Below, piece after piece: positions 16,101 to 50,198 of a stretch of 64,000 nt of DNA. The notes beneath the pieces are model-generated. The model was given only the letters and a program-made list of their open reading frames with translations. It did no database searches and was not told the origin of the DNA. The stretch's first letter is position 1. The number at the start of each line of letters is the position of its first letter. The DNA is from Bacteroidota bacterium (GTDB lineage Bacteria > Bacteroidota > Bacteroidia > Bacteroidales > JAGONC01): contig JAPLDP010000031.1 of the NCBI GenBank assembly GCA_026391695.1, forward strand, positions 1-64,000, given 5' to 3'. The translations under genes were made by a program, and so were the position numbers.

Positions 16101-18935
16101 ATGACCTCTGTGCTGTGGACAACGAGTGGCACTGGCACTTTCGATGATCAGACCTTGCTTAATGCAACCTATACACCCAGTACTGATGATATTAATGCTG
16201 GTCAGGTAATCCTTACCCTTACAGCCAATGGCAGCGGAAATTGCGAACCTGCCAGCGATGAGATGGTGCTGACCATCTGGGAAAAAGCTACTGCCTACGC
16301 CGGTAATGATGCCTCGATTTGTGAAGGAGACCTCTACCAGGTGCCCGATGCCAGCGCCACCGGATATGTATCCATAGAGTGGATCCACAACGGAGCAGGA
16401 ACCCTGACCAATGGAACAACCCTCTCGCCTATCTATACGCCAGCTCCCGGAGAAACCGGCCTGGTCACACTCATCATGACCGCGATTTCAGAAGGAGGCG
16501 GATTATGCCCGGATGCCATGGATTCGACGATGATAGAAATTACCGGGGTACCTATCTGCTCTGCCGGAAGCGACGACGAGATCTGTGAAACCGAAACATA
16601 TACCCTGTCAGGGATGGTAATCAATTCTTCCTCTGTCCTCTGGACTACAAGCGGTACAGGTGTTTTCGATAACGCAAACATTCTGGCTCCAACTTACACC
16701 CCGGGTCAGGAAGATGTCGCTGCAGGGCAGGTCACCCTTACCCTGACCGCATTTGGTAACGGAAGTTGCGGAGCTGTAAGCGATCAGATGGAACTGACTA
16801 TCGTTAAGCTGGCCGAGGTTTATGCAGGCTCCAATGACTCCGTGTGTGAAGGTGATAGTTTCCAGATACAGGGCGCTGCTGCCAGCAACTTTGTCAGTCT
16901 GTTATGGACACACAACGGGCTCGGAACTTTGACCGATGAGACCACCTTATCCCCGACCTATACACCCGGATCCGGAGAAACAGGCCTCATCACCTTGATC
17001 CTCAGTGCTATCTCATTACCACCCTGCGAGTCAATAAACGACACCATAATCCTGACAATCCTGCCACGGGTTGAGGTTGATGCCGGTGCGGATGCAACGG
17101 TCTGCGAGGGCGTAACTTATGTAATTCATGGCGCAACGGCAGTAAATTTCAGTGAATTGCGCTGGTCGACGAGTGGTACGGGATCTTTCAATGATTCTAC
17201 TATTATGAATCCAGAATACACACCAAGCATAGATGACATTTCATCCGGAGGCGTCACTCTGACCCTTACCGCTTTCGGTCTAGGCAACGATGGTACCTGT
17301 CCGCCGGCTGTTTCAGATCTGGTTATCTGCCTCAGTGTGCTGACGATAGACGCTACAGTCACCAACGCCTCCTGCCCGGGAACACCCGACGGATCCGTCA
17401 CCATGGCAGCAACCAACGGAAATGAGCCTTATGAGTATACTCTGAATGGAAATACTAACAATACCGGTTATTTCGCTGATATGCTTGCCGGTACCTATAA
17501 TTATCTTATCAGTGATGCAAACGGATGCAAAGCTCAGGGAATAGTGACAATCGGAATAACAGATGATCAGGCACCTGCAATTAACTGCCCGGCACCCGTT
17601 GTAACCAATACTGAACCTGGTGAATGCTTCTCTTTCAATCCTTTACTCGGATCACCTTCTTCTGTGACAGATAACTGCGGTATCGACACTGTTTTCAACA
17701 ACTTCCTTGCATTGTTCCCTGACGGTCAGGTCCCGGTCGGTTCCTGTACTATTACATGGACAGTCATTGATAATTACGGCAACTCAGCTACCTGTTCACA
17801 ATTGTTGTCGGTTATCGACAACGAGTATCCAGAAATCTCATGCCAGGACATCAATGGTCTCGCCGAACAGGGAGCATGCGAAGGATATGTTACTATACCT
17901 ACACCTGAAGTATCGGATAATTGCCAGATTGATAAGGTCACTAACAGTCAGAATGGCACCGGCGATGCCAGTGGAATCTATCCCGTAGGAACCAATACTG
18001 TAGTATGGTCGGTTTCGGATATCTATGGAAACACATCCACATGCCATTTCAGTGTAACTGTACAGAGTGACCCGGTGGCTGTGGATGACTATGCTTCCAC
18101 TCCTGATGAAGTGCCGGTGGATATTTATATTCTGGGTAACGATAAATATTGCGAGAGCGACAATGGATCAGCATCTGCAACTATTATCAGGGATCCGGAA
18201 CATGGTCTGGCGATAATGACTAATGCCATCAGTTTCTTAATTTACCAACCGGATAATGACTTTATTGGAATCGACAGCCTTGAATATGAACTATGCGATT
18301 ACACAGGTGAATGTGATACTGCAACTGTGTATATTACGGTATTTTACTATAACAGCCCACCTGTAGCTGTAATAGATTACGATTCAACGATCGTCAACAT
18401 TCCAAAAGTAGTCGCCGTACTCGCGAATGATTATGATCCGGATGGACAAATTATTGACTTTGAGCTGGTCACGCAGCCTATGCATGGGACATCCAGTAAG
18501 ATAATAGCAGACAGGGCGATTTTATACAGCCCCCTCGAGGATTTCATTGGTATCGACGAATTCTCTTATGCCATTTATGATGATGGTAATCCGTCATTAA
18601 GCAGTACGACAAAGGTCATCATGTACGTGCTTGATGAGGATGACTTTCCGGGACCTCCAATTATCATTTATAATGCATTGACTCCTAATGCTGATGGCAA
18701 GAACGATTTCTGGAAACTAAAAGGAATCGAACTATTCCCGGATAATCAAGTCATTATCATGGACAGATGGGGGACCATTATAGCAGAATTCGAACATTAT
18801 GATAATGCAACGGTGCGATGGGAAGGAAAAAACAAAGAAGGCTTCATGGTACCTAACGGAACCTATTACTATTTTATCTCACTATCAGATCATAGATTAT
18901 TTTACAAAGGATGGGTATTTCTATACCAGGATTAA
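13164..18935 (+). CDS. SprB-like T9SS type B adhesin with gliding-motility-type C-terminal domain
   Basis: A 1923-residue exported protein with a GTG start at 13164 and signal peptide (IGLIILLLVAGRLAGQ). After it come PKD-like segments, SprB-type repeats (VSCYGYNDG, YTLNG, YTVFDINGC), and then about eight alternating Ig/PKD-like domains with AGxDASICEGD and SGTGTFDDxTLL motifs, three pairs of which are near-identical at DNA level. HYR-like domains lie at about 1470-1635 and two cadherin/VCBS-like repeats (AVDDYASTPD, VLANDYDPDG) at about 1635-1830. It ends in a CHU_C/type B sorting domain, about 1837-1923 (NALTPNADGKNDFW, MDRWGTII, PNGTYYYFI). Such proteins cross the outer membrane by T9SS and typically pair with a PorP/SprF protein, which is the next gene, 42 bp downstream. 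The likely role is surface adhesion or gliding; the ligand is unknown. Confidence 0.88.
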   Translation: MKQIRYIGLIILLLVAGRLAGQGIPVLDTVCAGTDRYYRVDGSAGSTYTWLLTLPGGTTDTLPSDADTLAIAWNYSPGTYLMQVIQHSDSSCDAIPVYGELIILESPDVFAGDNDLVCSDSTYYLAGSWAQNISSLSWTTSGDGIFNDSTLLHPIYTPGNNDILIGSVVLTLTGAGMGAEGGCEPAVSNVTLAILQVEINISALVNVSCYGYNDGFIQLVASGGIEPYTYTLNGESNQTGLFENLYAGDYGYTVFDINGCTTGGNITITEPPPMEALYSFTPATCNGGNNGTITIFDASGGSGTYDYSIDGTNWQTAGFFNGLAPGIYIPQIRDAIVVNCISIIDTIDISEPGMLSATVDYTNVTCFNANDGTITVTDPVGGSGSYEYSITGFPWQSSGLFTGLAPASYEVIIRDLNDPDCEVVLATIDIVEPLAPFVSAGDDAQICSNETYTLSGTTNMGAVGWSTNGTGSFDDTTLLAATYTPSVEDIDSGMVMLTLTAFAGGDCENISDTMALIIWKQVTVFAGSDASICDGDTYQVPDAVATDYAALLWTHDGAGILTGDTTLTPTYIPDTGETGLITLILLATPMGSGTCPEVQDTMTIIITGSPMVNAGVDAPICSTDTYTLSGTSNMTSVLWTTSGTGTFDDQTLLNATYTSSTDDINAGQVILTLTANGNGNCEPASDEMVLTIWKQVTVFAGSDASICEGDAYQVPDAVATDYAELLWTHDGAGILTGDTTLTPTYIPDTGETGLITLILMATPMGSGCPEVQDTMTIIITGAPVVNAGIDGEICSTDTYTLSGTSNMTSVLWTTSGTGTFDDQTLLNATYTPGTDDINAGQVILTLTANGNGSCEPASDEMILTIWKQATVFAGTDASICEGDAYQVPDASATDYAELLWTHDGAGILTRDNTLTPTYIPDTGETGLITLILMATPMGSGCLEVQDTMTIIITGSPVVNAGVDGEICSTDTYTLSGTSNMTSVLWTTSGTGTFDDQTLLNATYTPSTDDINAGQVILTLTANGSGNCEPASDEMVLTIWEKATAYAGNDASICEGDLYQVPDASATGYVSIEWIHNGAGTLTNGTTLSPIYTPAPGETGLVTLIMTAISEGGGLCPDAMDSTMIEITGVPICSAGSDDEICETETYTLSGMVINSSSVLWTTSGTGVFDNANILAPTYTPGQEDVAAGQVTLTLTAFGNGSCGAVSDQMELTIVKLAEVYAGSNDSVCEGDSFQIQGAAASNFVSLLWTHNGLGTLTDETTLSPTYTPGSGETGLITLILSAISLPPCESINDTIILTILPRVEVDAGADATVCEGVTYVIHGATAVNFSELRWSTSGTGSFNDSTIMNPEYTPSIDDISSGGVTLTLTAFGLGNDGTCPPAVSDLVICLSVLTIDATVTNASCPGTPDGSVTMAATNGNEPYEYTLNGNTNNTGYFADMLAGTYNYLISDANGCKAQGIVTIGITDDQAPAINCPAPVVTNTEPGECFSFNPLLGSPSSVTDNCGIDTVFNNFLALFPDGQVPVGSCTITWTVIDNYGNSATCSQLLSVIDNEYPEISCQDINGLAEQGACEGYVTIPTPEVSDNCQIDKVTNSQNGTGDASGIYPVGTNTVVWSVSDIYGNTSTCHFSVTVQSDPVAVDDYASTPDEVPVDIYILGNDKYCESDNGSASATIIRDPEHGLAIMTNAISFLIYQPDNDFIGIDSLEYELCDYTGECDTATVYITVFYYNSPPVAVIDYDSTIVNIPKVVAVLANDYDPDGQIIDFELVTQPMHGTSSKIIADRAILYSPLEDFIGIDEFSYAIYDDGNPSLSSTTKVIMYVLDEDDFPGPPIIIYNALTPNADGKNDFWKLKGIELFPDNQVIIMDRWGTIIAEFEHYDNATVRWEGKNKEGFMVPNGTYYYFISLSDHRLFYKGWVFLYQD
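14721..16280 (+). repeat. Three near-identical 519-522 bp in-frame repeats
   Basis: Units begin at 14721, 15243 and 15762 (522, 519 and 519 bp; each encodes about 173 residues, a pair of Ig/PKD-like domains). They differ by only scattered substitutions and one 3-bp indel, while units on either side are diverged. This indicates recent amplification or gene conversion and is a likely site for copy-number variation or assembly collapse. Confidence 0.88.
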
Positions 18936-18977
18936 AAATGATAAAGAAACAACAAACAGTATATAAATCGAAGTCAT

Positions 18978-19901
18978 ATGAAAAAGCTACTATTACTTCA
19001 ACTGGCTCTGTTCCTTACAGTCATTGCTTTCGGTCAGAGGGATGCTTTTTACTACCAGTACTTGAACAATTACCATATCCTGAATCCTGCATTTACAGGA
19101 ACTCAGGAGAAGCTGACTTTTAACCTGACTGACCGGCATCAATGGGTAGGAGTGAGAGGTGCTCCCAATACAATTACTTTTGACTTCCAAACGGTTATTA
19201 AAAGTGAAAAAGTTGGCATTGGAGGGTATATCTATACCGACCGGTTGGGTCCGGCCTTAGATTTCGGTCTATTTACGACCTATGCTTACATCCTTGAAAT
19301 GCCTGATGCAAGGTTATCGTTCGGATTGCAATTCGGTTTTAAGCAAACTGTAATTGACTGGGACAGATTACAGATGGAAGATATGGATGATTGGTACCTG
19401 CTCGAACAGCCACAGCCCAGGATCATGCCCGATGCAGATTTTGGAATTTATTACTACAAGGAAAAATTCTTTGCAGGATTCTCCACCAAACACCTTTTTG
19501 AAAAATATTTTGCTGATTGGACCAAGATTAACACAAATTTACCATTGCTGCTTAATCAAAATATGTACCTGTATATCGGAGGATTTATCAATATAAGAAA
19601 GGAATTTATATACAAGCCATCTATATTGATTAAATATGTTGATGATGGCAGTTGGGGGTTTGATGCCAATTCCTGCCTAATGGTTTACAATCTCTTCTGG
19701 ATAGGGATTTCTTACCGGTCAAATCATAACTCTTTTGTTTTTATGACAGATATAAAAGTGAATTCAAAGCTTAGAATCGGATATTCATATGACACGTATC
19801 TTAGTGATATTCAACATTATAGCATCGGAACACATGAAATCAGGATCAGCTATGATGCCCAGCAATTACAGAAAAGGAGATACAGACGTTTATATTATTA
19901 A
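18978..19901 (+). CDS. PorP/SprF-family type IX secretion membrane protein
   Basis: A 307-residue outer-membrane protein with a signal peptide (MKKLLLLQLALFLTVIAFGQ) followed by the family signature YYQYLNNYHILNPAFTG and a beta-strand-rich body typical of PorP/SprF (HQWVGVRGAP, GIGGYIYTDRLGP, GFSTKHLFEKYF, LRIGYSYDTYL). Members of the family, such as SprF of Flavobacterium johnsoniae, are needed to localise the adjacent type B cargo. Here the gene lies directly after the CHU_C adhesin and is very probably in the same operon. The ATG at 18978 gives a normal signal peptide. A truncated second member of the family lies 330 bp downstream. Confidence 0.9.
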   Translation: MKKLLLLQLALFLTVIAFGQRDAFYYQYLNNYHILNPAFTGTQEKLTFNLTDRHQWVGVRGAPNTITFDFQTVIKSEKVGIGGYIYTDRLGPALDFGLFTTYAYILEMPDARLSFGLQFGFKQTVIDWDRLQMEDMDDWYLLEQPQPRIMPDADFGIYYYKEKFFAGFSTKHLFEKYFADWTKINTNLPLLLNQNMYLYIGGFINIRKEFIYKPSILIKYVDDGSWGFDANSCLMVYNLFWIGISYRSNHNSFVFMTDIKVNSKLRIGYSYDTYLSDIQHYSIGTHEIRISYDAQQLQKRRYRRLYY

Positions 19902-19917
19902 TGTTGGATATTTTTAT

Positions 19918-20148
19918 TTACATTATCAGATTTTCATTGAAACCAACATTATAGATCGTAAGTACTGTATCTGGGTAATACAAAACAGTATCTCCTCCCT
20001 GGGTGCGATTCATAACCTTGATGCTGTCGAGTTGAACATAGGAAGCACTGTCAATAGTCGAGAAGGTTAATTCAATTGTTGGACGTTGACCAAATGCCGT
20101 CATAGATGCAATGGAAAGGATTAAAAGAAGAGTGATTTTGATTTTCAT
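19918..20148 (-). pseudogene. Truncated exported protein, N-terminal fragment of a FISUMP/T9SS-type gene
   Basis: A 76-residue open frame on the opposite strand to its neighbours. It has a signal peptide (MKIKITLLLILSIASMTAFGQ) and the motif YVQLDSIKVMNRTQGGDT, nearly identical to residues 35-52 of the FISUMP protein at 61440-62768. In that full-length gene the motif is followed by a YPNP sorting domain and the FISUMP domain. Here the frame stops after VGFNENLIM, next to the 3' end of porP, so everything downstream is missing. Upstream on the same strand a sequence like TTTTGG-N-TATTTTAG could be its old promoter. It is probably a remnant left by rearrangement; a functional micro-protein is less likely. 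Confidence 0.65.
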
Positions 20149-20230
20149 AATCTTTGGGTTGATGATGAAATATTCAGCCTTCTAAAATACGAAGACTTAA
20201 AGCCAAAAGCAAGTACTATTTTGAGGTATA

Positions 20231-20674
20231 GGTGATGACTTTTTTGTGGGATTATCTTCAAAACACTTGTTTGATAGGGCTTTTGCAGAAACAGGTTCAG
20301 AAAATAGTACTAACTTCAGTTCACTAGGATATCATTTTTATACCTATATCGGAGGATATATTCGCTTCGGAAAAAATGTCATTTATAAATCTTCAATACT
20401 GGTTAAATATGTTGATAAAGGAACGTTCAGCTTTGATTTCAATTCAGCCGTCATGCTGAAAAATCTGATATGGGTCGGAGTATCTTTTAAATCAGCTACG
20501 AATTCTGTGGTCATTACTACAGAACTTAAATTGAATTCTAAATATCGGTTAGGTTATTCATACGACTCATATCTGGGTGATGTCAGGGCATATAATATCG
20601 GATCGCACGAAATCAAGATATCCTATGAGGTCGATTTATACAAGAGAAGAAATTCTTTCCCGTTGAGTTTCTGA
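20231..20674 (+). pseudogene. 5'-truncated PorP/SprF remnant
   Basis: The encoded 140-odd residues match the second half of the intact PorP/SprF protein at 18978-19901. GDDFFVGLSSKHLFDRAF corresponds to the region around residue 160 there, and YRLGYSYDSYLGD and YNIGSHEIKISYE match its C-terminus. There is no ATG or signal peptide, and an in-frame TGA at 20222 precedes the start of homology. The beta-barrel N-half is therefore lost. The break abuts the inverted FISUMP-type fragment, suggesting that one rearrangement produced both. The surviving frame has no internal stop, so decay may be recent. Confidence 0.75.
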
Positions 20675-21091: not shown

Positions 21092-24000
21092 TTAATTGAT
21101 AATCATTTTTTTTGCGTAGCTTTTTCCTCCGCTTGTAAATTTAAAAATATAAACTCCGGCATTATAATCTCTTACGTCGAGCTGAAAGCTCTGAATATTT
21201 ATAGGTACAACATTTTTGACAGAATTACCTTCTAAAGAAAAAATCTCAAGTTGTATTTCGTCATCGATTTTGTCTTTGAAGTAAATAGTTAAATAATTTT
21301 TTGCAGGATTAGGAAAAAGGTGTATTAAACCAAAAGGACTTTCATTCTCTTTAATGTTTAATAAAAATGCCTCCTTGATTTTTGACAAACCATTAGTGAT
21401 AAACTTTCCGTTATAGTTCGGTAAATCTTTATCATAACTTGGGAAAAGACAGAATTCTTCACCTGTTGAAGGACGATAAATCTTAAAATTCATTGTTTCA
21501 TTTTCATAAAATCCATCTTGGACTTCTGAAGTTGGATCATTACCATAAACAGTCATAGCAATATTCTGTGTTTTTTCCAGTAGCATAAACGAGCCACCAC
21601 AAATACCTGATTGTGTGAAACATCCGATGACGTCATCCGTTTTAAGCTCAGCTATTACTGCTTTACTAACGGCTATGATATGTGAATTTGGGGTGGGGGT
21701 TACTTTATACAAATTGAAACCCGAAAAATGTTCAGATTCAGAATCACAAATTGACTTGAATTGAGAGCTATCCGGATAAATAATTAAGCAATTATAAGAA
21801 GTGTGAATCATGTATGACTTTCCGGATTTTAGATATTGTAATGAATAGATATTTTGGCCTGGCCAGTATATTTTATTTCCCGCAATTTCTTTTACAATAG
21901 TCAAAGTATCACCTAAACTACTTAAAATATCTGTCTGCATAGTTGAAACATTACCTTGACTAAGAACAGGTAAAATATACCACCCTCCCGGGAGATGGAC
22001 GGTTTTATCCGATACCGTATTACCAATCATTACAAGCTGAATAGTGCTAGTTACATTTATTTTATAACCTGTCTGTGAATCCCAATAGATAATGGTATTA
22101 ATGCCTTGGCTTGGCCAATAAACATGAGCCATATCCATTAAAATTACTAAGTTTGAAACCACTGATGAAAAAATATTCACAAGCAGGTTGTCATTTGGTT
22201 GAATATAACTGGAGATACCGCTCCATCCTGCAGAAATATCTATTAATTGATAATTCTCAGGATCAAGAATGTCCAATTGTCCATTTTCACTTGCATACAG
22301 GATATTCTCCGAATTTTGATCTCCAAGAATTGTATTTTGAAGGTTCAAAGAATAGGTTTCCGCGTGATCAGTGTTTACCATAAATCTACAATATGCAATT
22401 GATCCGGAATTACCAAGAAACTTCTTTTGTTGCATCGAATAGGCAAAAATCCTCAGATGAGTTGAATCAATCAAGAATGAATAAATGGAATGGTTCTGTG
22501 CCCGGTTAGTCAAAGTTGCGGAACCTGGTATGTAAGATAATATATCCGGAAACTGAAGATCAAACTGGAAACCAACAAATTCATCGTAATTATCTGTACT
22601 CATCTTGATCTGGATTTCACCTGTAAAATTGGCTATTGCATCTTCAACGATAAGATAATTAGGATGGAAGGAATATCCGGTTAGATTAACGATATATGGG
22701 TACTCATCAGGATCATTACTGAAAATTTTCATCTGCCCCTGGTCGGAACCCTTGGTGGAATTGTGAAAATACAAGGGAATAGTAGTACTGTCATTAATAA
22801 GAACATTAACAGAGAACGTCATATCCGTGTAAAAATGATTGTTTGAGAACTGAATGCTCGTGATCGTTAGTGTATCCGAACCAACATTATACACGGTTAA
22901 GAAGGAAGAGGTTGTATCCATTACTGACACATCTTCAAAGTTCAGACTGCCGGATGAATGGATATCGGGGGCAGCAATTTCAAGTGTGCCATTGTAAAAG
23001 GCCGAGATACAATTTTGTCCGTAGATATCCCCAATCAATACATTCTCCAGGTTAAGGCCATAGTAACCGCCCAGTCCGTACACATCAAAACCCAATGATA
23101 ACACGTCTCCGTCATCTCCGCTGAACGTCTGATTGTCCTGCGAATAGGCCACGACTCTCAATACATGGGCTGATACCATGTTTGCAGAAACCGTATGGTT
23201 GGCCTTGCGTGGGGAAAGTGCCGCCGAATTGGATATATAGGTCAGCGGAGATGGCAAGCACAGATCGAATTGAAATCCGACAAACGGTTCCATGTTGTTA
23301 ATGGAAAAATTCAGCGTTACCTGTTTGCCGGAGTAGCCAAAGACATTGCCCGTATGTATCTCATTGACCGGAAAAGCGTAAGCTGTGAGGGTAATGGCGG
23401 AAGATGGTTCATCTGGGTCATTTGAAGTGATGGTCATTTGTTGCGTATAATTTCCCTTGATCACCGATAGGAACCGGACGGTGACATCACTGCTTTGTCC
23501 TCCCTGGATTGTAAAAGAAGAGGATCCAGCCACGAAAAAGTAGGGACTGTCAAACGTGATGTTTTGAATTGACAGATCTTGGTTGCCCGTATTATATATG
23601 GTTAATATCCTGTCGGTGCTGTCGGTTAAGGGTATTGCATCGAAATCGATGGCATCCGCAGTAAAGGTAATATCCGGGCACTGAATGTCAAGGATTCCCT
23701 GTATGGCCCCGGTGAGAATATTGGTGGAACCGGCACCTCCAATTACCGGATTTTGAAAGCTTAAGGTATATGATCCGGGATCATAACCGGTATGAAATTG
23801 GAAGGTGACAATCGTCCCTGTATCACCGGAAAAAGGTGTGTTTGTGAGCGAATACCCGAATATCCGTAATTTTCTGTCAGGGAAAAGAGTATCCTGTAAA
23901 ACATGATCCATTACCCTGTTCGGATTCAATTGGGCAGAGGAGGCCACATAGGTATATTCCTCAGGCAACAGCATTTCAAACTGGAACGCCACAAAGTCAT

Positions 24001-24157
24001 CGTCGTTGGTGATCTTCACCTGGATGGTTACATTTTGGTTTGGACCGGTTGTCGTGGATACAAACTCCATAACATTATCACCATGCGATATCATGGGAAT
24101 AATCCAAAGACATAAAACTATCTTTATAGCTGCTGAAGGATGTATATATTTCTTCAT
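21092..24157 (-). CDS. Triple-cohesin T9SS type A surface protein (scaffoldin-like)
   Basis: About 1021 residues from the ATG at 24157. That start gives a signal peptide (MKKYIHPSAAIKIVLCLWII) and lies 11 bp after the upstream gene; the frame extends further upstream but overlaps that gene. Three cohesin-like domains carry the repeated pattern (F)VAFQFEMLLP / FVGFQFDLCLP, LRIFGYSLTN / LRVVAYSQDN and GDTGTIVTF. The first two are followed by choice-of-anchor-D type segments (LTIYNTGNQDL, ITSNDPDEP). A domain with two AHVYWPSQGINTI / KIYWPGQNIYSL motifs comes next, then a type A sorting domain (HLFPNPAKNYLTIYF ... KKMIIN). It is exported and surface anchored by T9SS. In cellulosomes cohesins bind dockerins, and the operon's first gene encodes a dockerin; binding here is inference. 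Confidence 0.8.
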   Translation of the reverse strand: MKKYIHPSAAIKIVLCLWIIPMISHGDNVMEFVSTTTGPNQNVTIQVKITNDDDFVAFQFEMLLPEEYTYVASSAQLNPNRVMDHVLQDTLFPDRKLRIFGYSLTNTPFSGDTGTIVTFQFHTGYDPGSYTLSFQNPVIGGAGSTNILTGAIQGILDIQCPDITFTADAIDFDAIPLTDSTDRILTIYNTGNQDLSIQNITFDSPYFFVAGSSSFTIQGGQSSDVTVRFLSVIKGNYTQQMTITSNDPDEPSSAITLTAYAFPVNEIHTGNVFGYSGKQVTLNFSINNMEPFVGFQFDLCLPSPLTYISNSAALSPRKANHTVSANMVSAHVLRVVAYSQDNQTFSGDDGDVLSLGFDVYGLGGYYGLNLENVLIGDIYGQNCISAFYNGTLEIAAPDIHSSGSLNFEDVSVMDTTSSFLTVYNVGSDTLTITSIQFSNNHFYTDMTFSVNVLINDSTTIPLYFHNSTKGSDQGQMKIFSNDPDEYPYIVNLTGYSFHPNYLIVEDAIANFTGEIQIKMSTDNYDEFVGFQFDLQFPDILSYIPGSATLTNRAQNHSIYSFLIDSTHLRIFAYSMQQKKFLGNSGSIAYCRFMVNTDHAETYSLNLQNTILGDQNSENILYASENGQLDILDPENYQLIDISAGWSGISSYIQPNDNLLVNIFSSVVSNLVILMDMAHVYWPSQGINTIIYWDSQTGYKINVTSTIQLVMIGNTVSDKTVHLPGGWYILPVLSQGNVSTMQTDILSSLGDTLTIVKEIAGNKIYWPGQNIYSLQYLKSGKSYMIHTSYNCLIIYPDSSQFKSICDSESEHFSGFNLYKVTPTPNSHIIAVSKAVIAELKTDDVIGCFTQSGICGGSFMLLEKTQNIAMTVYGNDPTSEVQDGFYENETMNFKIYRPSTGEEFCLFPSYDKDLPNYNGKFITNGLSKIKEAFLLNIKENESPFGLIHLFPNPAKNYLTIYFKDKIDDEIQLEIFSLEGNSVKNVVPINIQSFQLDVRDYNAGVYIFKFTSGGKSYAKKMIIN

Positions 24158-24168
24158 GCGGGGAAATA

Positions 24169-24975
24169 TTATTTTATCACAATGATTTTTTTTGAATTTG
24201 TTGTAAACTGTTGGCTTTCTGATTGTAATACTAACCGGTATGAATATATGCCGTTCCGGGAGCAAATTCGCCGGAGTAGTGATTTATTTAACTCTAACTC
24301 ATGCTTGCCAGAATATAATGACCCGATTTCATAAATTCCGGCATATCTTCCTTCAATAGTTAGGAATTCCAAACGCACAGTTGCAGCTTCCTTCAGGACT
24401 AGCTCCAGGATCGTAGGATCATTCAATGGATTGGGATATAGATCAAAGAGTACTGCTGTGCCATGATTTAATTCCTCCACTGAAGAAGATTCAAGGAAGA
24501 TCATACCGTTTTCAATGGAAGTGAGGATATTGGCAGAATTGGTATCTCCGATAATGCAATCAAAAAGTTCCATCGGGTATGTTCCCGGTGTGCCTCCGGT
24601 GAGCAATTGAAACCTTACAATAATTCCTGAGTCCCCATGGAACAATGCATTGCTAAGAGAATAGGAAAATAGTCTTAACCGGTTTGTTGTTACTTGGGAT
24701 GCATTCAGCACATGATCGGCTTTACGGTCTGTCAGTTGAGCTGATTTATCAACATAAACACAAACAGAGGGAAAGATCAGGTCGCACTGGAAGGAAATAA
24801 AGGGATCATCATTCTTTATTTCAATCTCAACCGAGACAGTATCATGCGTTAAACCACTTACATCGCGAACGAGCAAGATATTCTCGGCATATAGTTCCAT
24901 TGTCATTAAAATGACCAGGATGATTAGAATAATCTTTGCAATGTGATGATATGGTTGTTTCATGCTGTCGATCAT
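24169..24975 (-). CDS. Single-cohesin T9SS type A surface protein
   Basis: A 268-residue protein with a signal peptide (KIILIILVILMTMELYAEN), one cohesin-like domain at about 33-155 (ISFQCDLIFPSVCVYV, LRLFSYSLSN, GDSGIIVRFQLL, IIGDTNSANIL) and a type A sorting domain (FDLYPNPLNDPTILEL ... KKIIVIK). The cohesin resembles each of the three in the next gene, so the two genes are paralogous. The ATG at 24975 is used here; an ATG at 24963 (MKQPYHH) is also possible. It lies 92 bp after the protease gene and 11 bp before the triple-cohesin gene, so the three form one operon. It could present one docking site on the cell surface. Confidence 0.8.
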   Translation of the reverse strand: MIDSMKQPYHHIAKIILIILVILMTMELYAENILLVRDVSGLTHDTVSVEIEIKNDDPFISFQCDLIFPSVCVYVDKSAQLTDRKADHVLNASQVTTNRLRLFSYSLSNALFHGDSGIIVRFQLLTGGTPGTYPMELFDCIIGDTNSANILTSIENGMIFLESSSVEELNHGTAVLFDLYPNPLNDPTILELVLKEAATVRLEFLTIEGRYAGIYEIGSLYSGKHELELNKSLLRRICSRNGIYSYRLVLQSESQQFTTNSKKIIVIK

Positions 24976-24977
24976 TT

Positions 24978-25045
24978 CTTTGCGTCCTTTGCGCTCCCTC
25001 TGCGCCCTTTGCGGTTATTTTTTTACTGCAGAGGACGTAAAGGGG
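24978..25045. repeat. Degenerate GCAAAGGnCGCAGAGG repeat
   Basis: Imperfect tandem units of the type GCAAAGGGCGCAGAGG (read on the - strand), between the protease gene and the single-cohesin gene. The last unit supplies the AAAGGA just upstream of the 24975 start. It is a spacer repeat without a coding role. Confidence 0.6.
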
Positions 25046-25067
25046 CACAGAGGTGAATTCCTGATAT

Positions 25068-28000
25068 CTACTTAATCAATATCATTTTTCTGTTTTGTCT
25101 GATGAATTCGCCTTTCTTGTCAACCGGCACTGCCTCCAGCCGGCAAAAGTAAATCCCGGAAGAAAGCGCAGTGTTGTCATTTATTTTACCATCCCACACC
25201 ACTTCATACGTTCCGGCCTGTTGCTGCTCCTGAACGAGTGTCGAGATAAGCTGGCCGTTTATGGCATAGATCTTTACCTCCACAAAAGCCGGTTCGTGCA
25301 GTTGGTAACTGATGTGCGTATTTCCGCTGAAGGGATTCGGATATACGACCATCCTGAATTCCCCGGGCACTGCTATGATTTCGCCTCCTTTCAGGATCGG
25401 CACATAAGTGCCATTAATATCCCCTCCAACAACCTCTCCAAACCGAAGGTCGCTTCCGGAGGATGCCATCCGGAAAATATCCAGGATGCCTCCGGGTATC
25501 TGTCTGGGAACAAAGCTGTAAATGATACCGAATATTCTGTTCTCTTGTTTCACATAAGCAAACTCATATCCTTCCAGGTTCAGGAACAGGACAACATCAT
25601 CAAGGTTCTCACCTAAAAGTTCAAACTGAAACGCGGCCACCTGTCCTTCGCTCTGCAGCCGGATAGATTGTTCTTTAAAATAAATATAGGCGGGTTTGGT
25701 TTGTGCATACAGGTAATTCTTTGACCCGGCTTTTCCTCCTGTGAGGATTTGAACCACACCGATGATGTCGAGTACATCGATCTGGTCGTCATAGTTCACA
25801 TCGGCCGCATCAAACAGGAACGGCTGTGGATTCTGGTTGAGCATATAGGCCACGATGGTGGTGATGTCCAGCACATTCACTGCCATGTCACCGTTCGCAT
25901 CGCCGTTGGCCGCGCTGAACGGTGTAGCCTGCACTTTTTTTGAATAATCACTTTCCGCCAGGTCGGTCCCCACTATTCTGTATAAATAATAGTAGGTAGT
26001 GTCGGGTATGACGTTATAATCCGTAAACAGGGTATCGGTGATCAGGCTGGTGTTGATCGGTAGTGTATCTGAAAAGGTGATATCGGTGACCTTATAAAAC
26101 CGGTACAGGTTATAACCCAAGGCATCTTCGGTGCTTGCCGGCGGCCATTCCAGGTCAACCTTGCCGATACCGGGTGTGGCAATAAACTCGATAGAGGCCG
26201 ACCCCGCTGCCTGGATCACGAACTGGAAACGTTCGTTCTCAACCGGTATTTCCCAGTTGGCCGTATCCCTGGCATCGCTCACACGGATCGTATTGATGCC
26301 GTCGCCTGTTTCCAGCCCGATGTTATACCATGCAGTCCAGATACTGGAATCAGCACTCCATAAGGTTGAGTTTGCGACAAGATGCTGTGTAAAAGGTTCC
26401 CTGACACCAAAGGTAAGAAACGGAGTGTACAGTGTGTCCATGGCCTTGTTGAAATACACATCAAATCTGGCCCAGCCTGCACCCAATGGGTCCAGGTGTT
26501 CATCCTGAGGATCGATACCATTGACCTCGACCTTCCAGACATGCCCGTGACATGAATCAGAAGGAGCCGTTAAATAAGGAGAGTAAATAACCTCACATAA
26601 TGTAGCATCATCGTAAAAATCATAGATCTTTTCTGAAATATGGACAGAATCAGCGGTCCCCCAATACAGGTTTTGAACAGTATCATAATAACCACCAGGG
26701 GCTCGACAAGCAATGTCTGGATATCTGTCAAGTATCGATGATTTGTATAAGACGGCTTGTAATGAAATACAGGTAAAGCGTGATAACACACAATTTTCCA
26801 CTCTCGTACCTGGATTTACAAACATAAGAAAACTATTCACAGTAACACTTACATTATCAAACACACAATTCGAAAATTGACACGGAACACCTCGATCAAA
26901 CCAATTCATGCCGGTACAGTTAATGAAAAAGCAATGACTAAAGTTAATTCCACAAAAATTAAAACATCCATACCATCCTGACGTTAAATTAAACCTCGAG
27001 TGCGAAATATTACCATCCTGGTTGCTTATATTAGCCGACATAAAATCAGTATATGTCATTCTGAAATCGACATACGACATATCTAATGTTCCCCGATAGG
27101 ATCCGCTGACAATATCATTTCCGGAAATATGAATAATGCTATCTTCGGTTCCATGTGCGATGATTTTCCCATCATTTACAATCTTACTCACTAAATCAAG
27201 ATAGGTGCCCGGAAGTATCTTTAAAACGCCCGAAGGTGTCAATCTGAAACTACCTGTAATTATCCATAATTTGTCGGGTGTAAGCGTGAGGGTGTCAGAA
27301 ATGTTGCCGGATATTTCTTCTCCATTAAATACCTCAATAAAAACAGATTCTGTTAAGGTATCAGATGAATTGATGGCGCCAATAAGAAATTGAAAAGCGA
27401 TTTGTCTTTTATGCACTACATTGGGCTTGATATATACTTCAAAGGGATCGGATTGGTTGGTTAAGGTAGCATAGCTCGACATGTCACCGATAAAACCCGT
27501 ACTGTCGGTTATCATTGCAACCGCGGTATCCTCAAAAGGACCCAATCTCATTTTGCACCATACACTGTCGGCATATCCTCCGGCATTTTTTACGCTGATC
27601 CATATCCGGATGGTTTCTCCTGCATCTGCTATACCATCATTATCACAACCGGGCAATGTATCAATGATTGTTTTATTTATATAATAGAAATCCGGTGGCG
27701 GTTCCGGCATATTCATGCTGTTGGCAATGTTCAGGATATTCCCGGAAGCCCCCTGGATCAACCGCATGAATATCTGTTCATTTGTGAATGCCGGGTGCTG
27801 GCTTTTGATCAGGGCCACTGCTCCCGCAACAATCGGACTTGCCATTGAAGTCCCGTTCAGGTAATGGTATCCTCCGTTGGGAAATGTGCTATAAATTGAT
27901 ACACCCGGTGCAGTGATTTCATAATTGTATCCTTCCGGGTGAGTAGACACTACAGGTCCACTCTTGTCTTTATTGGAAAATTCTGCCAGTTTCCCGGATG

Positions 28001-29105
28001 AAGAAGATGCCATCACTCCCATTACCCAGGAATAGGCTGCAGGATACATATTAGCACAGATAATACTGTCATAACATATACACATCGCGTCATTGCCGGC
28101 AGCTGCCACAATAAAAGCAGAGTTATATGCCACTTCCAGGGCTGATTTCAGGGTAAGGGATTCACCATAACTGCCTAGGCTTAAGTTGATCACAGTAGCC
28201 CCGTTATTCCGGGCATAATTTACTCCGGCAGCAACATGGTCAGCCGTGCCGTACCCTGAACTCTGCAGTACCTTGATGGGCATGATCTGTGCATTCCAGG
28301 CCACCCCGGCAATACCAGTTCCGTTATTGCCTTTGGCTGCTGCGATGCCGGCCACATGGGTACCATGACCGTTATCATCGTTGGGATTGTTTTCGATGTT
28401 CACAAAGTCCCAGCCCCGGATATCATCCACAAAACCATTCATATCGTCATCAATGCCATTGCCAGGCACCTCATCCCAGTTGGTCCAGATGTTTGGTGTC
28501 AGGTCAGGATGATCCCAGTCCACACCGGTATCAATGATGCCGATGACCTGGGTTGTATCACAGGTTGTGGAATCCCATGCAGCAGGGGCATTTACCGCTG
28601 CCAAATACCATTGTTCAGAGTATAAGGGATCATTGGGTGTTAACTGGGGAGGCGCCATCATAGTGTAATAATAGTAGTTTGGTTCAGCAAAATCCACAGC
28701 CGGATCTTTGGAAAGCAAAGAGTCCAGCAATCTAATATCTGTCTGAGGATCAAACTTCAGCTTGTAGATATTAAAAAGCTGGGGCATCTCCTTCACCTGC
28801 CCGTTGAAAGTAGTGATAAACTGCCGCCCGTTCCGTTTTTGTTCGCCGCGAAAAACTTTTTCAATCCCTTCGGACCGGTAGTCCTGAAGGAGTCGGTCGA
28901 CAGAGGCAACTCCCACCTGAACGACATTTTGTTTTGTATGGGCCTGGATGAGCACATCATCCTTGAATTTCACCAACAATTCACCTGGCGCATAATCCGG
29001 ATTGTAAGGATCCAGGTACTGCCAGTTCATGAAACCTGTGGGGTGCTGGGAATATACTACCCAGCTCAGAAGCATGGCTGAGAGCAAAAGAGTAATAGTT
29101 TTCAT
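25068..29105 (-). CDS. Subtilisin-like (S8) protease with dockerin and T9SS type A tail
   Basis: A 1345-residue exported serine protease. It has a signal peptide (MKTITLLLSAMLLSWVVYSQ) and an N-terminal propeptide-like region at about 40-145 (PGELLVKFKDDV). The S8 catalytic domain at about 165-460 has the triad Asp192 (IDTGVDWDHPDL), His247 (NGHGTHVAG) and Ser420 (GTSMASP), with oxyanion Asn338 (AAAGN). A beta-helix-like stretch lies at about 630-800 and an Ig/fn3-like segment follows. A type I dockerin at about 1068-1124 has two calcium-loop repeats (GDANGDMAVNVLDIT and DVNYDDQIDVLDIIG), and a type A sorting domain starts at about 1252 (VVYPNPFSGNTHISY). All catalytic residues are present. 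It is first in an operon with two cohesin proteins. It probably degrades extracellular protein; the substrate is unknown. Confidence 0.9.
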   Translation of the reverse strand: MKTITLLLSAMLLSWVVYSQHPTGFMNWQYLDPYNPDYAPGELLVKFKDDVLIQAHTKQNVVQVGVASVDRLLQDYRSEGIEKVFRGEQKRNGRQFITTFNGQVKEMPQLFNIYKLKFDPQTDIRLLDSLLSKDPAVDFAEPNYYYYTMMAPPQLTPNDPLYSEQWYLAAVNAPAAWDSTTCDTTQVIGIIDTGVDWDHPDLTPNIWTNWDEVPGNGIDDDMNGFVDDIRGWDFVNIENNPNDDNGHGTHVAGIAAAKGNNGTGIAGVAWNAQIMPIKVLQSSGYGTADHVAAGVNYARNNGATVINLSLGSYGESLTLKSALEVAYNSAFIVAAAGNDAMCICYDSIICANMYPAAYSWVMGVMASSSSGKLAEFSNKDKSGPVVSTHPEGYNYEITAPGVSIYSTFPNGGYHYLNGTSMASPIVAGAVALIKSQHPAFTNEQIFMRLIQGASGNILNIANSMNMPEPPPDFYYINKTIIDTLPGCDNDGIADAGETIRIWISVKNAGGYADSVWCKMRLGPFEDTAVAMITDSTGFIGDMSSYATLTNQSDPFEVYIKPNVVHKRQIAFQFLIGAINSSDTLTESVFIEVFNGEEISGNISDTLTLTPDKLWIITGSFRLTPSGVLKILPGTYLDLVSKIVNDGKIIAHGTEDSIIHISGNDIVSGSYRGTLDMSYVDFRMTYTDFMSANISNQDGNISHSRFNLTSGWYGCFNFCGINFSHCFFINCTGMNWFDRGVPCQFSNCVFDNVSVTVNSFLMFVNPGTRVENCVLSRFTCISLQAVLYKSSILDRYPDIACRAPGGYYDTVQNLYWGTADSVHISEKIYDFYDDATLCEVIYSPYLTAPSDSCHGHVWKVEVNGIDPQDEHLDPLGAGWARFDVYFNKAMDTLYTPFLTFGVREPFTQHLVANSTLWSADSSIWTAWYNIGLETGDGINTIRVSDARDTANWEIPVENERFQFVIQAAGSASIEFIATPGIGKVDLEWPPASTEDALGYNLYRFYKVTDITFSDTLPINTSLITDTLFTDYNVIPDTTYYYLYRIVGTDLAESDYSKKVQATPFSAANGDANGDMAVNVLDITTIVAYMLNQNPQPFLFDAADVNYDDQIDVLDIIGVVQILTGGKAGSKNYLYAQTKPAYIYFKEQSIRLQSEGQVAAFQFELLGENLDDVVLFLNLEGYEFAYVKQENRIFGIIYSFVPRQIPGGILDIFRMASSGSDLRFGEVVGGDINGTYVPILKGGEIIAVPGEFRMVVYPNPFSGNTHISYQLHEPAFVEVKIYAINGQLISTLVQEQQQAGTYEVVWDGKINDNTALSSGIYFCRLEAVPVDKKGEFIRQNRKMILIK

Positions 29106-32586: not shown

Positions 32587-35256
32587 TTAAACCTCCTCAA
32601 ACCGCCCCTGGAAAAATCGGAGTTTATCCGGCTCGTAGGTGAGACGGAGACCTTTTAAAGTATGCCGATTTTTATAAAGATTTATTATCCCTTCAGCGAC
32701 AGCTTTCATATGATCACGTGTGTAGACACGGCGTGGTATGGTTAAACGAACCAGTTCCAGGGCAGGCCGGTAATTCTGCCCCGTTGCAGGATTGCGTCCT
32801 TTACTGACGTTCCCACGTTCCATAGCTCTCACTCCCGTTTCAATAAATATTTCCGCCGCCAGCCTTTGAGCAGGGAACTGGTCCTGATCGATGTGTGAAA
32901 GAAACTGCCGGGCATCCACAAATATGGCATGACCTCCCCACGGAAGAACTATCGGAACACCTGCCTCCTGAAGAAGTTTCCCCAAATAAGCTGTCTGTTC
33001 TATACGGGAGTTTATGTATCTGTCATCAACCATTTCTCTGAGACCCTGGGCATGAGCTGCCATATCGCCTGCAGAAGTGCCCCCACTGCAATAAGTGCCT
33101 TCAAAAATCTGGAGCATTCGCTGACCTTGTCTGTACCAGGCTTCATTATCCTTGAACAAAAGACTTCCTGAAAGATTACTGAGCATATCCTTTTTACTTG
33201 ATATGGTAGCGCCATCGCCATAGCTGAACATTTCAAGAAGTATGTCTGCAACAGGCACATTGCGGTACACCGGATCTTTCCTCTGGATGAAACAGGCATT
33301 TTCGGCACAACGTGTTGCATCAAAAAATACAGGAATATGCCGGGGCTTACAATATTTGTAAACCTCTTTGATGTTATTCATCGACACAGGCTGACCCCCG
33401 GCCATATTTACATTAAACTCAAATGAAACATAAGATATCTTTTTCCCTTCTTTGGTGGCCTTTTCATATAGCGAGCTGAGTTTTTCCAGATCGATATTCC
33501 CTTTCCATTGAAATTCCGACGATGCTTTATGTGCTTCATCCACAATGACATCCACGAATGTTCCCCCAGCCAGCTCCTGGTGTTGTTTTGTCGTGGTGAA
33601 GTACATATTGCCAGGCACATAATCCCCAGGTTTGATGAACATTTGCGACATGATATGTTCGGCAGCACGCCCCTGATGAGTCAAAATGATATATTTGTAA
33701 CCATATATCTTTTGTGAAGTTTCGACGATTTCGCCGTATGAATCCGGTGTCGCCGGCGTCTCCTTTGCTTTATAATAAGCTATCCACTGGTCAACACTCA
33801 TAGCACTTGTTCCTGAGTCGGTGAGAAAATCGATGGTCACATCTTCTGATTTCAGTAGAAATGTATTATAGCCGGCTTCAATCATCGATTTATGACGGTA
33901 TTCCCGGCTGTTCATGCCGACATGCTCAATGGAATGGATGATATAATGTTCACAGGTGAAGTCATAGGCAGTAAGTTCAGGTACAAGCCATTCAAAGTGG
34001 GCTTCGGAATGAAATACCGGCTCATTTACCAGTTCAAGAGGCGTGATCTGTCCCTTTTGCTCATATAAATTAACAATAGCATCGCCGATTTGCTCAATCT
34101 GGCTATTCATTAACGCACGGCGTGGGATGAGTACAGGCAATAAATGCCTCCTTTGATATTTGCCTTCCAGATGCGCTCGAATGCCTGAAGTGAGATACAA
34201 AGCAGCCGATAATGTATGTGCTGAATCGATATCAGGATGAGAAACGAATTTCTCCGAATTCAGATAAACGCCATTGAATCCCCTGGTGAATGGTACTTTA
34301 CCCTTCTCAAGTACTCCGGCAAGTACCGACACCTGGTAATCGATCCAGTCGGCATGAAGAAAATCAGTCATTTCCCTAAGCCCTGTGGCCACGACCTCCA
34401 TAGTCCTTCCGGCCATTCCGCCATACGTATGAAGCCCTTCGAATACGACAACAAGATTCTGATATTTTTCATAATCTTCCTCAATGTCAGTAGCTAAGAA
34501 GCCGCCGACATTGCTCATGGCATCCTGACCTGCATCAAAAAGCAAGGTATGGCAATAGCCGGCTATTTCTTTTATCAGTTCGCTGATAGTCTTGTTTTTA
34601 TAAAACTCATCATGCCGGAGGATATAATATGCCGATTCGGCAATACAGGAGGCTTCAAGGATGAGTTTTGTATGATAAGTTTCCGCAGTTTTTTTTATGG
34701 TAGCCAGATTTTTAATAGAGATAGGACGATAACCTTCTCCTTGAAGGTCAATATATATGAATGCAACATGACCCTTATTCTGCTCTAAAAAACCGGTTAG
34801 TTTTTTTACATCAATATTTCCGGGATACATACGATTTTCATCATAAAGGAGCTGAAAACATTTGCCGCCAAAAGCCTGAGCACTATCAAATGGAACTGTA
34901 GTATTGCCGGCTATTATTTTTTTGTCTGAAATATGGGCAGAACAGAGCAGTTTAAAACCCCCGAAGAGATTGTGTATGGGACAAATATGCCGTATGCCGG
35001 TCACATCCTTGACTGCGTCATTTAATTTGTAGAAATTTCTGGCTCCTGCATAAGCCTCATCTCCAACAAAAAGATTACCTACCTGTTCCTGGCTCATAGC
35101 AGAACTGCCCTGTGTAACCATGTCGAAAGCAACATGTCCGGCCGGCAATAATCCTACATTATTATTAACACCCCTTAAAAGTTTTTTTCTCTCGGATAAA
35201 CTCTTGAATTGAATGTTCCTTATAGATTTTATTTTATAGGGTTCATGTTTTATCAT
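32587..35256 (-). CDS. Fused double tryptophanase / tyrosine phenol-lyase family protein with degenerate N-half
   Basis: An 889-residue protein made of two beta-eliminating-lyase domains (about 1-415 and 430-889); normal members are about 460 residues. These PLP enzymes cleave tryptophan or tyrosine to indole or phenol, pyruvate and ammonia. The C-half has the PLP lysine motif SSKKD (K689), FFDATRCAENA (D646, R649), THQGRAAE (526-533) and RLTIPRR. It lacks the GDEAYAG-NFY block, replaced by AKETPATPDSYGE. The N-half has GDEAYAGARNFY (Y69) but lost the others: Q244 replaces the PLP lysine (DAGQDAM), LEASCIAESA replaces DATR, and IHNLFGGF replaces the QGR motif. There is no frameshift and the two halves are in one continuous frame. 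The start at 35256 follows AAAGGGGAAAT. Substrate (Trp or Tyr) cannot be told. Confidence 0.88.
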   Translation of the reverse strand: MIKHEPYKIKSIRNIQFKSLSERKKLLRGVNNNVGLLPAGHVAFDMVTQGSSAMSQEQVGNLFVGDEAYAGARNFYKLNDAVKDVTGIRHICPIHNLFGGFKLLCSAHISDKKIIAGNTTVPFDSAQAFGGKCFQLLYDENRMYPGNIDVKKLTGFLEQNKGHVAFIYIDLQGEGYRPISIKNLATIKKTAETYHTKLILEASCIAESAYYILRHDEFYKNKTISELIKEIAGYCHTLLFDAGQDAMSNVGGFLATDIEEDYEKYQNLVVVFEGLHTYGGMAGRTMEVVATGLREMTDFLHADWIDYQVSVLAGVLEKGKVPFTRGFNGVYLNSEKFVSHPDIDSAHTLSAALYLTSGIRAHLEGKYQRRHLLPVLIPRRALMNSQIEQIGDAIVNLYEQKGQITPLELVNEPVFHSEAHFEWLVPELTAYDFTCEHYIIHSIEHVGMNSREYRHKSMIEAGYNTFLLKSEDVTIDFLTDSGTSAMSVDQWIAYYKAKETPATPDSYGEIVETSQKIYGYKYIILTHQGRAAEHIMSQMFIKPGDYVPGNMYFTTTKQHQELAGGTFVDVIVDEAHKASSEFQWKGNIDLEKLSSLYEKATKEGKKISYVSFEFNVNMAGGQPVSMNNIKEVYKYCKPRHIPVFFDATRCAENACFIQRKDPVYRNVPVADILLEMFSYGDGATISSKKDMLSNLSGSLLFKDNEAWYRQGQRMLQIFEGTYCSGGTSAGDMAAHAQGLREMVDDRYINSRIEQTAYLGKLLQEAGVPIVLPWGGHAIFVDARQFLSHIDQDQFPAQRLAAEIFIETGVRAMERGNVSKGRNPATGQNYRPALELVRLTIPRRVYTRDHMKAVAEGIINLYKNRHTLKGLRLTYEPDKLRFFQGRFEEV

Positions 35257-50074: not shown

Positions 50075-50198
50075 TATTAGTATTGATTTCCAGAAACAAA
50101 TATCGTATATTTATCAAAAAGATCATTTACTCTATAGATATATGTGAAACTTCTTTATATTAATGATGTATTTTCAAACCACCAATAAAAGTCGCATC

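Follow-up and report, generated by a model that had tools for sequence, protein, structure and literature searches.

Adjoining dockerin-protease and cohesin genes in a Bacteroidota genome: a candidate surface docking cassette built around peptidases

Described cohesin-dockerin systems and the present locus

In other bacteria, dockerins are known from cellulose-digesting enzymes. Ca. Stygibacter (Cloacimonadota) has a putative cellulosome-like complex with an inferred use on polypeptides (PMC8542988), and the cellulosome of C. thermocellum includes an S8 protease with a double dockerin (reviewed in PMC12484212). According to a 2026 paper, all cellulosome systems described so far belong to Firmicutes; the paper calls the co-occurrence of cohesins and dockerins in 78 Bacteroidetes metagenome-assembled genomes (MAGs) surprising, leaving it for later study (PMC12997984). 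The role of dockerins in rumen Bacteroidetes is described as "not defined yet" (PMC7480376).

Within the window, the whole 64,000-nt stretch of DNA that was analysed, three adjoining genes (P1 to P3) encode an S8 protease with a dockerin, a single-cohesin protein and a three-cohesin protein. Their closest precedents are the Ca. Stygibacter scaffoldin with its S8/C25-dockerin enzymes and the clostridial cellulosomes. The idea of a peptidase docking system is not wholly new, since peptidase-dockerins and a T9SS-tailed scaffoldin are already inferred for Ca. Stygibacter, where S8/S53 and C25 peptidases likewise bear C-terminal dockerins and the scaffoldin has a T9SS tail (PMC8542988). That organism nevertheless belongs to another phylum, its 3,755-aa scaffoldin bears CBM2/CBM3, its dockerins are also found with GH18 and GH57, and the accessible text describes no gene pair of S8-dockerin and coh-HYDIN-coh-HYDIN-coh type (PMC8542988). 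Clostridial cellulosomes share with this locus the type I dockerin, the cohesin fold and an S8 protease as dockerin partner of cell-bound scaffoldins, but they differ in their mainly glycosidase cargo, Gram-positive anchoring and CBM-bearing scaffoldin; the S8 protease is an accessory in C. thermocellum, whereas here it is the sole protein with a dockerin above the cut-off (PMC12484212). The Limousia mucinolysome is likewise a cohesin-dockerin complex with some peptidase-dockerins, yet it comes from Bacillota and carries mainly CAZymes (PMC12997984). The orphan dockerins of rumen Bacteroidetes also lie in Bacteroidia genomes, but on GHs, DUFs and CBMs, with no partner cohesin reported (PMC7480376). 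P3, with its three cohesins, resembles a cellulosomal scaffoldin in having several; the cargo is not mainly glycoside hydrolases, and a Pfam search of P2 and P3 at E 1 found no CBM family. With neither GH cargo nor a CBM at this locus, we rejected its identification as a cellulosome.

Modules of the three proteins

P1 (25068-29105, 1345 aa), P2 (24169-24975, 268 aa) and P3 (21092-24157) lie on the minus strand, separated by gaps of 92 and 11 bp. This arrangement, given in the initial annotation, agrees with the open reading frame calls when P3 begins at its best start, ATG 24157 (MKKYIHP...); a longer mechanical reading frame from TTG 24265 would overlap P2. That annotation had also read the genes as encoding an S8 protease with a two-loop type I dockerin, a one-cohesin protein and a three-cohesin protein, a reading upheld by the Dockerin_1 match, the cohesin family profile and the predicted fold of P2. 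The signal peptide that it assigned to each protein is a judgement by eye. Its account had overlooked the two HYDIN Ig modules of P3, a cohesin-fold module (X) in P1, and some 300 residues before the P3 tail, which match no known family.

P1, recognised by its reading frame, its Pfam/NCBIfam matches and an architecture common to many relatives, consists in order of a signal peptide (by eye), a prodomain, the S8 domain, a beta-rich middle, an FN3-like stretch, the dockerin, X and a T9SS type A tail. The Peptidase_S8 domain (27747-28553, aa 185-453; PF00082, E 9.7e-55) has the D/H/S triad and oxyanion N in place (D192, H247, N338 and S420), residues that are invariant in an alignment of 70/70 S8-dockerin proteins, and by these sequence features P1 is an S8 peptidase whose catalytic triad is complete. 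A pseudoprotease reading was discarded: a strict regular expression had found no His in 51 of 72 S8 proteins (HGTHCAG), while alignment recovered it in 70/70. The type I dockerin (25734-25904, aa 1068-1124), placed here by the initial annotation too, is the only one in the genome above the cut-off; Dockerin_1 (PF00404) matches residues 1068-1114 with E 3.7e-6 and 27.5 bits against a threshold of 22.9. Both of its loops, DANGDMAVNVLD and DVNYDDQIDVLD, have the calcium-ligand pattern and VL at positions 10-11 (recognition pairs were also tallied), and its predicted fold matches CaDoc0917 (6kg9, Z 10.6). Between dockerin and tail lies X (25362-25697, aa 1137-1248), a divergent module of cohesin fold: solved cohesins are structural matches to its AF2 model (Z 12.3), and a profile seeded on it iterates into the cohesin family.

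The P2 cohesin module (24487-24888) was modelled by AF2 with a pLDDT of 97.9, and the model superimposes on 6kgc_A with Z 18.8 and an rmsd of 1.5 Å over 131 residues; among the structure matches listed, 50/50 are cohesin entries. On this predicted structure, the module is a cohesin with a nine-stranded jelly-roll. In P3, cohesin 1 (23678-24082), HYDIN/choice-anchor-D Ig module 1 (23369-23677; PF22544 E 2.7e-17, NF012200 E 6e-21, and its own profile), cohesin 2 (22970-23371), HYDIN Ig module 2 (22664-22969; Pfam and its own profile) and cohesin 3 (22262-22666) follow one another, the three cohesins being identified as such by the family profile. The earlier description of the four cohesins as closely alike was generous, as the P3 modules are 33-38% identical to that of P2. 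Q34, R55 and H59 (numbered as in the P2 model) are among the most conserved residues at all three P3 positions; when conservation was compared sheet by sheet, the presumed binding face stood out in COH3, slightly in COH1 and not in COH2, so that no general pattern emerged.

Standard annotation misses this cohesin family, which falls mostly below the Pfam cut-off. Of the four cohesins here, PF00963 sees only cohesin 3 of P3, at 20.8 bits against a cut-off of 24.1 (E 8.6e-4); it has no match in P2, and even at E 0.1 it matches only 20 of 47 family members. Searched against the PDB, the P2 sequence alone gave a chance match only, and a family profile was needed, which ranked solved cohesins first (5n5p, E 9.2e-6). 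Since fold and profile-to-PDB searches identify these modules as cohesins, it is the Pfam model that misses this branch, and the cohesin assignment of the initial annotation stands despite sub-threshold Pfam scores. Cohesins on a further contig (C95) were set aside as partners, this being a separate locus with different scoring and a partial dockerin only.

The type A T9SS tails that had been assigned to all three proteins exceed the cut-offs in P1 (25071-25346, aa 1254-1345; PF18962 E 2.6e-7, TIGR04183 33.6 bits) and P3 (21098-21319; PF18962 E 7.1e-14, TIGR04183 39.5 bits), the TIGR04183 cut-off being 23 bits, and these two proteins are predicted T9SS type A cargo. For P2 the assignment is weaker: no curated Pfam/NCBIfam model passes, and the tail-like region (24232-24441) was matched at E < 1e-3 only by a profile iterated from the P1 tail. 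The region has the same position in P2 orthologues, which adjoin P3 orthologues in G217/L199, L201, L202, L203 and L214.

Linkage of dockerin and cohesin genes

Among 295 genomes of the order, the cohesin family is present in 20, and dockerins occur in all 20 of these versus 61 of the 275 genomes without the family (Fisher p = 9e-13, although genomes are not independent); at the genus level, all 14 cohesin-carrying genera have dockerins (p = 1e-7). The presence of a dockerin does not have to mean that this partner is there as well, given the 61 dockerin genomes in which no cohesin of this family was detected. Of the 20 cohesin genomes, 17 have a dockerin gene immediately before a cohesin gene, and the same order is seen in 7/7 other genomes taken from a phylum-wide cohesin search. 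Where a cohesin genome has exactly one dockerin at this detection threshold (seven cases), it is found in the adjoining gene or in the cohesin protein itself. Where the sequence continues for at least 600 bp past an S8-dockerin gene (66 cases), the next gene encodes a cohesin in 57 and another S8-dockerin in 3; loci L199-L278 were found with a dockerin-X alignment from mainly S8-linked seeds, which biases the S8 share but involved no selection for neighbouring cohesins. The linkage spans families and classes of Bacteroidota, and the pair of S8-dockerin and coh-HYDIN-coh-HYDIN-coh genes occurs in dozens of Bacteroidales MAGs, a cultured Prevotella (Prevotella sp. P6B1, L276), Ignavibacteriaceae and KSB1. 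This recurring gene pair in Bacteroidota and neighbouring lineages suggests surface docking built around protein-digesting rather than cellulose-digesting enzymes. The cohesin family is a candidate partner for at least some of the dockerins reported from Bacteroidetes.

Proposed docking at the cell surface

We consider it likely that the locus is a surface docking cassette, T9SS-exported and probably calcium-dependent, by which peptidases are brought together on the outside of the cell, with binding, calcium dependence, location and substrate all inferred. The protease-centred scaffold first raised as a possibility in the initial annotation has gained support from the modules, co-occurrence, linkage, S8 residues and peptidase cargo. 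Because of their C-terminal signals and the presence of SprA in the genome (found in 8/8 genomes tested, this one included), P1, P2 and P3 would be exported by the type IX secretion system and kept at the outer surface. The P1 dockerin, whose fold probably holds two calcium ions, would plug into the cohesins of P3 and P2, and P3, its three cohesins spaced by Ig modules, could act as a small scaffold collecting several protease copies. Peptidases gathered at one cell site would then break down protein for uptake. The earlier caution that each protein has its own anchor signal still applies: with a T9SS tail on each, docking would join separately exported proteins, and the scaffold would not be needed for surface display. 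If the proposal is true, Bacteroidota use cohesin-dockerin assembly for proteolysis at their surface, with the T9SS surface in place of the Gram-positive wall, and such assembly offers new orthogonal plug-and-socket pairs; the three-gene form is compact enough for the pairing to be testable.

The P1 dockerin might be masked by X or contested between X and the other cohesins, and it is unlikely, though conceivable, that dockerin and X bind within one chain as a capping or stabilising dyad, leaving the P2 and P3 cohesins for surface adhesion or for recruiting another partner. X does have a cohesin fold and comes immediately after the dockerin in cassette proteins. The two-module model reaches a pTM of 0.84 despite a low-confidence linker, hinting at a defined relative placement, and in a partial mirror-tree test, too weak to be given weight, the dockerin distances correlated best with X after control (0.39); the values for the cohesins, 0.17-0.29, were barely above those of HYDIN controls, 0.14-0.15. 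X nevertheless lacks the R55/H59 pair kept in the P3 cohesins, the linkage includes proteins that end in the dockerin, without X, and such a dyad leaves unexplained why cohesin genes always occur in dockerin genomes, adjoining dockerin genes. We find it quite improbable that the modules have lost their pairing and serve as adhesion or spacer domains, their linkage reflecting descent from one T9SS surface operon. Other surface proteins do contain cohesin-like modules that have no scaffold role, and contig C95 has further cohesin-domain proteins with no good dockerin nearby; against this, both calcium loops are intact, the dockerin has diverged less than any other cassette module compared (mean distance 0.25), and its linkage to cohesin persists with quite different cargo before the dockerin. 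Head-to-tail protease fibres, in which each P1 dockerin binds the X of the next P1 and P2 and P3 form ends or branch points, are very improbable given a divergent and short X, even though P1 has both a dockerin and a cohesin-fold module and relative G052 has adaptor-like COH-doc proteins.

The window holds a minimal form of the proposed docking cassette, with one dockerin and four cohesins, and relatives carry larger forms of 36-55 dockerins with scaffolds of 5-10 cohesins, where a P3-type scaffold would collect a mixture of peptidases. Two relatives have 39-55 dockerins; peptidases make up most of the enzymes recognised among their dockerin proteins, alongside one GH18. Since most dockerin proteins in many-dockerin relatives end in the dockerin without a T9SS tail (33/52 in G052, 28/37 in G007), the dockerin could stand in for an export or anchor signal, and we regard as rather doubtful, but worth stating, that cargo is exported or held together with a tailed cohesin scaffold to which it binds, even within the cell envelope; if so, the phylum has a peptidase-based system whose docking step belongs to secretion itself. 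The proteins extending past the dockerin in these relatives mostly have an X module and a T9SS tail.

Modules of the three-gene cassette

P1 (25068-29105), P2 (24169-24975) and P3 (21092-24157, best start 24157) are consecutive minus-strand genes, 92 and 11 bp apart. They are flanked upstream, at a distance of about 430 bp, by a pyrB/pyrI-like pair and downstream by an opposite-strand gene. Open reading frames and domain matches agree with the initial annotation of an S8 protease with a dockerin beside one-cohesin and three-cohesin proteins. P1 (1345 aa) has Peptidase_S8 at residues 185-453 (E 9.7e-55), Dockerin_1 at residues 1068-1114 (27.5 bits against a cut-off of 22.9) and a C-terminal type A tail of the type IX secretion system (T9SS) matching a curated model. 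P2 (268 aa) contains one cohesin, and P3 contains three (COH1-3) with two HYDIN/choice-anchor-D Ig modules between them (PF22544, E 2.7e-17) and a T9SS tail, preceded by about 300 aa lacking any family match. Signal peptides of all three proteins were assessed by eye only.

The reading of the four repeats as cohesins fared differently by method: the Pfam cohesin model detected one of the four, under its cut-off, whereas family profile-to-PDB comparison and the P2 fold upheld it. An iterated profile, by which COH1-3 were assigned, found 80 same-family modules in stretches fetched from eight genomes; its best PDB match was the cellulosomal cohesin 5n5p (E 9.2e-6), and weaker matches were mostly cohesins too. 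Only 20 of 47 family members matched PF00963 even at E 0.1. Fold prediction covered the P2 module (AlphaFold2, alignment with 46 relatives, pLDDT 97.9), which by Foldseek and VIA-align best matched 6kgc_A (Z 18.8, rmsd 1.5 A over 131 residues), with cohesin entries throughout the best 50 listed. The P2 and P3 cohesins are a divergent cohesin branch, mostly overlooked by standard annotation.

Both calcium loops of the P1 dockerin, DANGDMAVNVLD and DVNYDDQIDVLD, are intact. In clostridial dockerins, specificity is set by the residue pair at loop positions 10-11; this pair is V-L in both P1 loops, in nearly all counted loops of G001 and G062 and the majority of those of G003 and G004 (G-handles denote genomes of the same order). 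The loops of G002, a genome possibly outside our 295-genome sample, have S-W or A-W there, and no cohesin of the window's family was found in it, the best P2 matches being confined to the tail region. Directly C-terminal to the P1 dockerin is the X module (residues 1137-1248, about 112 aa). Because a profile seeded with it converged into the cohesin family and its model matches solved cohesins (Z up to 12.3), it is predicted to be the cassette's fifth, divergent cohesin-fold module. It has retained the conserved strand-3 Q, but the R..H pair that the P3 cohesins conserve is missing. Residues 6-68 of the dockerin-X model matched solved dockerins (Z 10.6 and 9.8), and its pTM of 0.84 hints that the two modules may be held in fixed relative placement.

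Gene linkage and co-occurrence

The cohesin family occurs in 20 and Dockerin_1 in 81 of 295 genomes of the order. Dockerins were present in 20/20 cohesin genomes versus 61/275 others (Fisher p 9e-13) and, at genus level, in 14/14 with cohesin versus 49/170 without (p 1e-7), p-values that overstate independence given the genomes' shared ancestry. In all seven cohesin genomes with a single dockerin at E 1e-4 (G000, G025, G124, G141, G187, G243 and G292), it lies in the gene adjoining the cohesin gene or within the cohesin protein; in G124, a profile built for this analysis detects one in both. The window's genome, with P1's as its one above-cut-off dockerin, is a minimal case of the putative docking system.

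By hand count, a dockerin gene is directly upstream of a cohesin gene in 17 of 20 genomes; G138 and G292 combine both modules within one protein, and G253 was not judged because its contig ends there. A phylum-wide cohesin search added eight genomes, and in all seven of these that were fetched a dockerin gene, four times an S8 protease, directly precedes the cohesin gene. The full P1-P2-P3 order is retained in G217 and, among named MAGs, at loci L199 (probably the same genome as G217), L202, L203, L214 and L201, in the last of which the contig ends within P1.

Scanning named genomes for the dockerin-X region, with no cohesin neighbour required, gave 80 loci, whose S8 share is biased since the seed alignment was mainly S8-linked. 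Carriers include Bacteroidaceae, Prevotella sp. P6B1 (a record without a MAG label), Paludibacteraceae, Muribaculaceae, Prolixibacteraceae, Ignavibacteriaceae, Melioribacter and KSB1. Downstream sequence of at least 600 bp was available for 66 S8-dockerin genes: the next gene was a cohesin in 57 and another S8-dockerin in three; six had neither within 400 bp, and in two of these (L222 and L267) a cohesin gene begins 600-660 bp further on. The active-site D, H, N and S are present in 70/70 aligned S8-dockerin sequences.

Dockerin cargo in relatives and known systems

Two relatives (loci L078, L152, L157, L090 and L077) are rich in dockerins (at E 0.01, 39 in G007 and 55 in G052) and have scaffolds whose cohesin counts are 5, 8 and at least 10. 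Among the matches listed for 45 G052 dockerin proteins were peptidases C25 (4), M14 (3), S8 (3), C10 (1) and M28 (1), a peptidyl-arginine deiminase, a PNGase F-like domain and one GH18; one half of these proteins has five more single-member families beyond those listed. Among 36 G007 dockerin proteins were C25 (7), C10 (2), S8 (2), M14 (1) and a deiminase; glycoside hydrolase families gave no match at E 1e-10. Most dockerin proteins of both genomes had no enzyme-family match; from these tallies, the putative docking system is peptidase-rich, not cellulosomal, in both cases examined. G052 also encodes cohesin-dockerin adaptor-like proteins of about 245 aa, and six successive dockerin-X-tail genes ahead of a large scaffold.

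The dockerin is the protein end in 33/52 cases in G052 and 28/37 in G007; in the remainder it is mostly followed by about 190-220 aa of X and T9SS tail, and a few proteins have an N-terminal dockerin, then other domains. T9SS tails occur on 15 (G052) and 8 (G007) dockerin proteins, and a speculative idea is that the dockerin could stand in for the export signal in proteins lacking the tail. Many proteins of G001, G003 and G004 have a near-N-terminal dockerin, an unusual position, and end by eye in a stretch like FISUMP (Fibrobacter succinogenes major domain; PF09603, confirmed in three G052 dockerin proteins only).

Peptidase-dockerins and a T9SS-tailed scaffoldin have been inferred for Ca. 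Stygibacter of the Cloacimonadota (PMC8542988), and a C. thermocellum S8 protease with a double dockerin has been reviewed (PMC12484212). Bacteroidetes genomes have been described as without cellulosomal components (PMC5831590), rumen dockerins as of undefined role (PMC7480376), and the co-presence of cohesins and dockerins in Bacteroidetes MAGs as surprising and unexplored (a 2026 paper, PMC12997984); Bacteroidota are absent from the available text portions of a 2024 survey of cellulosome bacteria (PMC11557425). No description of an S8-dockerin/cohesin gene pair was found in the open-access literature; priority is uncertain.

A candidate docking scheme and neighbouring loci

Module identity, intact active-site residues, linkage and co-occurrence support a scheme in which P1, P2 and P3 would be exported via T9SS, as suggested by the tails and by SprA (in 8/8 genomes tested), the P1 dockerin, probably folded with calcium, would dock to the cohesins of P3 and P2, and several P1 copies would be gathered on one anchored scaffold. 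We infer binding, calcium dependence, surface location, stoichiometry and substrate. A partial mirror-tree, though weak, gave the expected direction for one cohesin (dockerin versus COH2 0.29, versus HYDIN 0.14-0.15).

A second cohesin locus in the same genome (L012, contig C95, 1-15756) encodes large repeat proteins with PF00963 above cut-off, two of them T9SS-tailed, and a 1874-aa protein with a partial, sub-threshold dockerin match in its C-terminal part, then a cohesin-like stretch. Elsewhere in the window, an SprB-repeat protein with a CHU_C signal (type B T9SS cargo) is followed by a PorP/SprF gene and a PorP/SprF fragment (13164-20674, plus strand); the fragment (20246-20674) covers profile positions 154-273 only and is perhaps a broken copy. 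At 32587-35256 (minus strand), an 889-aa protein matches the beta-eliminating lyase domain PF01212 over two stretches in tandem and is roughly double the usual length. At 50163-55088 (plus strand), a 1641-aa RHS-repeat protein has DUF6531 at its N-terminus.
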